44,006 nt of DNA from a virus. A model generated the notes under the pieces. The model was not told where the DNA came from, ran no database searches, and worked only from the letters and a program-made list of their open reading frames with translations. The DNA is taken from IMG/VR virus record IMGVR_UViG_3300018424_000047, positions 1 through 44,006 of that record. One strand, written 5' to 3'. Shown piece by piece: positions 808 through 1,024 of the stretch. Within the stretch, counting starts at the first letter, position 1; every line of letters begins with the position of its first letter. The position numbers were made by a program, and so were the translations under genes.

Positions 808-842
808 AGACTCAAGCGGGACTTGTTATGCAGTCTCTCCCG
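808..842 (+). ncRNA. Pseudoknot-capable leader RNA before the PqqA-like peptide
   Basis: AGACT (808-812) can pair with AGTCT (832-836), enclosing a hairpin CAAG (813-816)/CTTG (822-825). The entire five-base hairpin loop CGGGA (817-821) is complementary to TCCCG (838-842). This makes either a pseudoknot or two competing folds. The element sits about 40 bases before a tiny ORF with a strong ribosome site, the position expected of a riboswitch or translational regulator. I could not match it to the glutamine-binding Downstream-peptide/glnA riboswitch consensus or to another named class, so the role is inferred only from base pairing. Confidence 0.5.
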
Positions 843-883
843 TGATCTGTTTACATAATTTTAATCTAATAAGGAGAAACATT

Positions 884-955
884 ATGTGGACAAAACCTAC
901 AGCAGAAGAAATGCGTTTTGGTTTCGAAGTTACAATGTATGTGATGAACAAGTAG
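884..955 (+). CDS. PqqA-like 23-residue precursor peptide
   Basis: A 23-codon ORF begins at ATG 884, seven bases after the strong ribosome site AAGGAG (871-876). The peptide starts MWTKP, has Arg at 11, the block GFEVTMY at 13-19 and ends in Lys. Bacterial PqqA, the precursor of pyrroloquinoline quinone, has the same length in Klebsiella, an N-terminal W-x-K-P and the conserved Glu and Tyr of E-V-T-x-Y that are cross-linked into the cofactor. Here Glu15 and Tyr19 sit at the matching positions. No pqqB, C, D or E homolog is visible in the window, so it would depend on host maturation enzymes, mimic the peptide or do something else. The unit has its own leader RNA and terminator. Family resemblance is clear to the eye; function is inference. 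Confidence 0.72.
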   Translation: [23 protein letters not shown]

Positions 956-997
956 ATTACATGCAGCGTCTTTTGGAAACACAAGACTGCGAATAAC

Positions 998-1024
998 GAA
1001 AGGATCTTCGGATCCTTTCTTTTT
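998..1024 (+). terminator. Rho-independent terminator after PqqA-like peptide
   Basis: A perfect nine-pair stem GAAAGGATC (998-1006)/GATCCTTTC (1011-1019) is closed by a TTCG tetraloop and followed by five Ts. It ends the short peptide transcript and insulates it from the gp32 promoter about 35 bases downstream. Confidence 0.93.

Follow-up and report, generated by a model that had tools for sequence, protein, structure and literature searches.

An orphan pqqA gene in methylotroph phages and a leader RNA element common to OM43-type bacteria and viruses

The open reading frame at positions 884-955 (+) of the window, which is the whole 44,006-base virus record analyzed here, is on sequence grounds a genuine phage-borne orphan pqqA gene. 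Its peptide is best read as extra substrate for PQQ synthesis by the host, and in the lineage of the window the gene is preceded by a structured leader RNA that is homologous to the leader of pqqA in OM43 bacteria. We assign a probability of about 0.74 to this explanation as a whole, namely an orphan pqqA that feeds host PQQ synthesis and carries an OM43-type leader.

The encoded peptide has 23 residues (ATG at 884, stop codon at 953-955), with Glu15 and Tyr19 at the positions that are cross-linked in PqqA. It scores 40.8 bits against Pfam PF08042 (E=2.1e-10, cutoff 21.1) and 38.8 bits against the equivalog model TIGR02107 of NCBIfam (E=5.7e-10, cutoff 20), exceeding both curated cutoffs almost twofold in bits, and a PF08042 search of 14 control genomes gave no match. 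The peptide resembles the PqqA family in its length, W2-x-x-P5, R11, G13, Glu15 and Tyr19, and it is near-identical to the PqqA of Methylophilaceae hosts. It differs from the usual family member in being phage-borne, in the absence of pqqD and pqqE from the genomes tested, and in having a promoter region, leader and terminator of its own. The initial annotation, made from the letters alone, had placed an isolated PqqA-like unit with a ribosome site, structured leader and terminator at 808-1024. These parts and coordinates were all borne out, and the profile searches confirm the family that it had named.

The features of the unit are collected in the table. The Shine-Dalgarno sequence lies 7 nt 5' of the start codon, and the terminator consists of GAAAGGATC-TTCG-GATCCTTTC followed by TTTTT (one in the sequence; shuffled sequences have 0.1 on average). 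The region 790-1030 folds with -64.5 kcal/mol (z=-4.0), and 0 of 200 shuffles were as good. The promoter-like sequence at 779-807 weakly suggests the promoter region of the unit; TATAAATA occurs at a similar distance in the relatives L036 and L115. Read through pqqA and beyond it (886-996), the +2 frame ends in a tail, VDYMQRLLETQDCE, just before the terminator. A similar tail, VDIHRLLETLDCE, follows pqqA in L088, which has its terminator in common with the window. The tail is possibly a remnant or the end of another small gene.

Table. Features of the pqqA unit and its flanks, in window coordinates.
Feature	Positions	Strand	Basis
Promoter-like TTTACG-17-TATAGT	779-807	+	9/12 consensus matches; 3 such sites vs 1.8 expected (weak)
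T4-late-like TTTAAATA	793-800	+	overlaps the promoter-like sequence 779-807
Conserved structured RNA element CUCAA-[P1]-GANCUG	811-849	+	covariance model R1, covariation
P1 helix, 5' strand GCGGGA	816-821	+	RNAalifold; pairing test
P1 helix, 3' strand TCCCGT	838-843	+	RNAalifold; pairing test across relatives
Second hairpin, element to gene	850-892	+	fold; pairs with the start-codon region in the window's lineage
Shine-Dalgarno AAGGAG	871-876	+	sequence
pqqA, 23 codons + TAG	884-955	+	ORF, PF08042, TIGR02107
Intrinsic terminator	998-1024	+	hairpin + T run, shuffle comparison

The window carries phage SSB, UvsX, UvsY, primase and helicase genes. The nearest DNA relatives of its SSB and UvsX belong to jumbo and T4-like phages, with 66-71% identity, and the window is probably a fragment of a phage genome. 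The host is probably a methylotroph of the OM43 lineage, an assignment that is indirect. Two Nol-like carbamoyltransferase genes (phrog_1601; 32482-33954 and 36980-38506) flank a DnaB-like helicase gene, and the pair suggests modified DNA bases.

In a tblastn search of 50,697 phage records, the peptide matched Venkman, MEP301, MEP401, MEP402, P19250A and four Melnitz records. These are 9 of the 9 cultured Methylophilales/Methylophilaceae phage records returned, a fraction that refers to returned records, as the taxonomy also lists MEP431-434, HIM624-A, Venkman EXVC038S and others, which did not appear. The nine come from unrelated phage types (Venkman, MEP301, MEP401/402, P19250A and Melnitz). 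One uncultured spring-water podovirus was matched as well. In none of the nine cultured phages or the podovirus is the gene named pqqA, and mostly no feature is annotated there. It is unannotated or covered by an antisense feature in MT375522, MW452941, OP830906, OP830907, KX815270 and MZ577095-MZ577098; at the Melnitz locus the cover is an antisense hypothetical ORF. The OM43 phage paper PMC10580990 gives auxiliary metabolic genes and never names PQQ. The phage gene has been missed because it is only 23 codons long.

The remaining tblastn matches were two Acinetobacter records under one name. The one opened, L127 (CAKLQF020000010.1, "Acinetobacter phage MD-2021a" in INPHARED), contains a full host pqqABCDE operon, and thus the record includes bacterial sequence. 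Host DNA in a "phage" record could suggest that pqqA in phages is carry-over in general, and the few copies interrupted by an intron could be taken for non-functional remnants. We consider either origin very improbable, and the data contradict both. The window has the phage replication and recombination genes listed above, and in the complete genomes of cultured phages pqqA is an isolated gene. For 150 distinct coding sequences from viruses, which encode 64 peptides, pS is 0.585 and pN 0.114 (pN/pS 0.19), and at the nine core PqqA residues pN falls to 0.026. These values point to purifying selection on the peptide, which the initial annotation had required of a real gene; they speak for constraint rather than for maturation. 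The gene is therefore of host metabolic type, lies in bona fide phage genomes and is under purifying selection, as expected of a phage auxiliary metabolic gene.

Scanning viral contigs with a peptide pattern gave at least 119 matches, and well over 100 viral contigs carry pqqA; such counts are lower bounds and not estimates of prevalence. The pattern behind most of these contigs demanded E15 and Y19, and only the contigs found by the leader, with the peptide unused, are unbiased at these positions. All complete genes in that set encode W2, P5, R11, G13, F14, E15 and Y19, so that the conservation of the cross-linked pair, also anticipated in the initial annotation, holds there. Divergent phage PqqA peptides with EITMY or EICMY and with RWG or WVKP/WEKP occur in L334, L353, L363, L364, L377, L384 and L399; they keep Glu15 and Tyr19.

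Some phage pqqA genes are interrupted by a group I intron between the codons of Phe14 and Glu15 (L352:4149-4460 and L361:12397-12720; also L341, L359, L385 and L386). The intron is 233-278 nt long, measured as exon-to-exon distance, and matches Rfam RF00028 with E=8e-16 and 1e-21. Two introns of different sequence share this insertion site. When the flanks are joined, an intact 23-residue PqqA results, which argues against a remnant. The 3' exon was not found in L155, L379 and L390.

A location next to pqqBCDE is usual for a pqqA gene but not required, and orphan copies are normal in the host family; in the window and the cultured phages, neither PqqD nor PqqE was found. PqqE (TIGR02109) had no match in 48 phage records including the window, and PqqD (PF05402) had none in 8 viral records, namely the window and seven named phage genomes. 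Of the pqqBCDE products, the search covered PqqD and PqqE, and as the window is probably a fragment, pqq genes elsewhere in the phage are possible. PqqD is present in the OM43 strain LSUCC0665. The look-up of pqqD and pqqE proposed in the initial annotation thus gave a host gene and no phage gene in the genomes tested. Any maturation of the phage peptide must therefore use host enzymes. Methanol dehydrogenase (TIGR03075) likewise had no match in 50 phage records including the window, and the phages tested thus bring the substrate only.

One PqqA is consumed for each PQQ, its Glu and Tyr being cross-linked by PqqE. The hosts themselves carry many copies of the substrate gene: 12 in Methylotenera mobilis 13, 7 in Methylobacillus flagellatus L1B and 3 in OM43 LSUCC0665. 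Across the Methylophilaceae, 3-12 copies of pqqA go with only one set of the remaining pqq genes (PMC4109929). The availability of PqqA is reported to be rate-determining in Methylovorus MP688 (cited in PMC11317620). With up to 12 copies in the hosts and PqqA reported to be limiting, extra substrate is the best reading of the phage gene. Because each PQQ uses up one PqqA and its supply is reported to set the rate, extra PqqA should raise or sustain PQQ. Some bacteria take PQQ up from the medium, and therefore extra precursor may not always help. In the OM43 genomes L293, L294, L302 and L312, a conserved ORF of ~24-32 residues ending in CTCPICSAKS lies between tandem pqqA genes, and a similar CNCPICSA ORF lies between pqqA copies in Methylophaga L214. 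A Pfam search of the CPICSA-type ORF gave no match.

We propose that the phage, when it infects a methylotroph (probably one of the OM43 lineage), would make extra PqqA and that host PqqD, PqqE and the later enzymes would turn it into PQQ. The PQQ-dependent alcohol (methanol) dehydrogenase would then be kept supplied, and energy could keep flowing during phage production, to the benefit of the phage. The phage would thereby imitate the Methylophilaceae, in which pqqA is present in many dispersed copies and the rest of the pqq genes in one set only. In the lineage of the window, the leader would most likely tie the amount of PqqA made to a cellular signal or determine how the mRNA is used or how stable it is.

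The phage peptide might instead be a decoy that occupies PqqD and PqqE and lowers host PQQ, or it might have a role independent of PQQ. Some hosts can make PQQ without PqqA, and it has been speculated that orphan copies may have other roles (PMC11317620); in addition, a PqqA-annotated RiPP family is reported near defense systems (PMC11118758). However, a decoy could do without the Glu and Tyr that are cross-linked, and both are fixed, while the hallmark residues of the phage peptide are those of the host copies. We regard such a role as improbable. The initial annotation had left it open whether the phage would feed, divert or mimic PQQ maturation. Feeding is favored by the absence of PqqD and PqqE from the phages tested, and diverting or mimicking is disfavored by hallmark residues identical to those of host PqqA.

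Viral pqqA was already known (PMC7678222, PMC13188868), and the initial annotation, correct about the peptide, had missed these reports and the many orphan copies of the hosts. The Lake Baikal methylotroph phage VP_266, for which PMC7678222 reports pqqA, is likewise T4-like with a presumed Methylophilaceae host, and the same boost of methanol oxidation was proposed for it. In contrast to the phages studied here, its pqqA came with a phage methanol dehydrogenase; a Baikal-type methanol dehydrogenase beside pqqA was not found in the 50 records. The available part of PMC7678222 describes neither a leader RNA nor a prevalence for VP_266. The orphan pqqA genes of Methylophilaceae are also single-gene units, dispersed over a genome that has one set of the remaining pqq genes (PMC4109929), but they are chromosomal, and the leader RNA occurs only in the OM43-type group. 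In Methylophaga nitratireducenticrescens GP59, a c-di-GMP riboswitch is annotated next to pqqA (PMC12530212). It too is a structured regulatory RNA before a pqqA, but it belongs to a known Rfam class, whereas the window element matches no Rfam family. Relative to the literature searched, the near-universal unannotated pqqA of cultured methylophages, the leader RNA family common to OM43 and viruses, and the group I intron in some phage pqqA genes are new; no paper found there connects pqqA with such a leader.

The leader motif emerged from an upstream comparison, being common to a subset of phage pqqA genes and missing from most. Its consensus is CUCAA-[G NNN R A ... U Y NNN Y]-GANCUG, the internal loop being CYU/UC. 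The P1 helix was predicted unaided by RNAalifold. Its partners pair in 98.1% of 216 cells (77.0% in shuffles), with double changes in 47 cells against 12; when the partner is shifted by one column, pairing falls to 46% or 31%. Among the relatives there are 15 different 5-nt P1 strands, each matched by its partner. The hairpin P2 within the element is variable, with 2-8 bp (mean 4.0 bp versus 1.8 in shuffles), and often has GNRA- or UUCG-type loops. The element at 811-849 thus combines conserved sequence and structure with compensatory changes, as a riboswitch does, and we regard it as a well-supported RNA family and a candidate cis-regulatory RNA. The initial annotation was right that the leader is structured and had overlooked this core and its family in OM43 hosts.

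No Rfam 15 family reached its gathering score in the leader, and the best matches, mir-672 (E=0.83) and rliF (E=2.1), are at chance level. An H-type pseudoknot of CAAG with CYUG was rejected, as the second strand varies (CUUUA, CUUCA, AUCUC) and the nested P1 explains all data.

The covariance model R1 scores 46.4 bits at the window element (E=7.6e-12) and E=1.5 at the next best place in the window, these E-values being rough owing to a short calibration. The model found the element in 23 of 187 Methylophilaceae genomes, one copy each. These 23 all belong to the block closest to LSUCC0665, with genome sizes of roughly 0.7-1.4 Mb, and in each the element precedes the leading gene of a tandem pqqA pair. 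In 399 genomes of the order there were three strong matches only, all in the LSUCC0665-nearest group. Two weaker matches (25-27 bits) were not counted: one in the G+C-rich L401 is chance-like, and the other, in L402, had no core motif where it was looked for.

Viral contigs were scanned twice with the fixed positions only, leaving the pairing bases free and the peptide unused. Among the occurrences listed, 108 had all five variable pairs; two of them were cut by the contig end, and all others were followed by a pqqA start. A further 11 had four or fewer variable pairs, and 0 of these 11 lay before pqqA. More than 100 viral contigs carry the element, again a lower bound, and within the 187 and 399 genomes and the viral contigs scanned it occurs only before pqqA. 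The cultured OM43 phages Venkman, MEP301, MEP401/402 and Melnitz have no element, although they have pqqA. A phage pqqA can therefore do without the element.

The leader may be a site for a translational regulator protein of host or phage, or a 5' stabilizer of an abundant mRNA, acting without ligand sensing. We rate this somewhat below even odds. The stem-loop is short, with fixed flanks, and lies close to the predicted 5' end; the stable loops of P2 would suit such a role; and most other phage pqqA genes do without the element and have only short hairpins. However, a generic stabilizer should precede other genes too, and none was found in the genomes and contigs scanned. The fixed single-stranded residues are also more than a stabilizer needs.

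It is possible, though rather unlikely, that the leader is a riboswitch. The ligand would be a small molecule, either PQQ, one of its intermediates or some other signal of methylotrophy, and its binding to the stem-loop, where bulge and internal loop are fixed, would switch the translation of pqqA. The phage would then have copied the host feedback along with the gene, which is compatible with the best explanation. The covarying domain, its restriction to pqqA in the sequences scanned, its presence in host and phage alike, and the variable hairpin that follows it and abuts the Shine-Dalgarno sequence are consistent with this idea. As a class, these CTG..ATG hairpins are more stable than shuffled sequence, with a mean z of -1.5 and p<=0.05 in 46% of 72 cases. 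By contrast, general occlusion of the Shine-Dalgarno/AUG region by the leader (0.76) is not above background, with 0.74 for shuffled spacers and 0.75 for pqqA leaders without the element. The proposed pairing of the fixed 5' CUC with the Shine-Dalgarno sequence fails as well, as CUC is kept even when that sequence is GGAA or GGAT, and the candidate class stands outside Rfam. More doubtful still is the specific proposal that the 39-nt element belongs to a new class of riboswitch in marine OM43 methylotrophs, which would regulate pqqA in response to PQQ or a closely linked signal, and that phages have taken over gene and sensor together, so that a host cofactor pathway comes under host-tuned feedback within the phage genome.

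The element is a concrete, testable RNA family. If it responds to PQQ or a related signal, it would be a regulator for a cofactor that has none in the literature searched, and it would be a case of a phage in which an auxiliary gene has stayed under feedback control of the host type. For its part, pqqA appears as a widespread, almost unannotated methylophage gene that directly connects viruses with the PQQ-dependent oxidation of methanol by streamlined bacteria of the sea.
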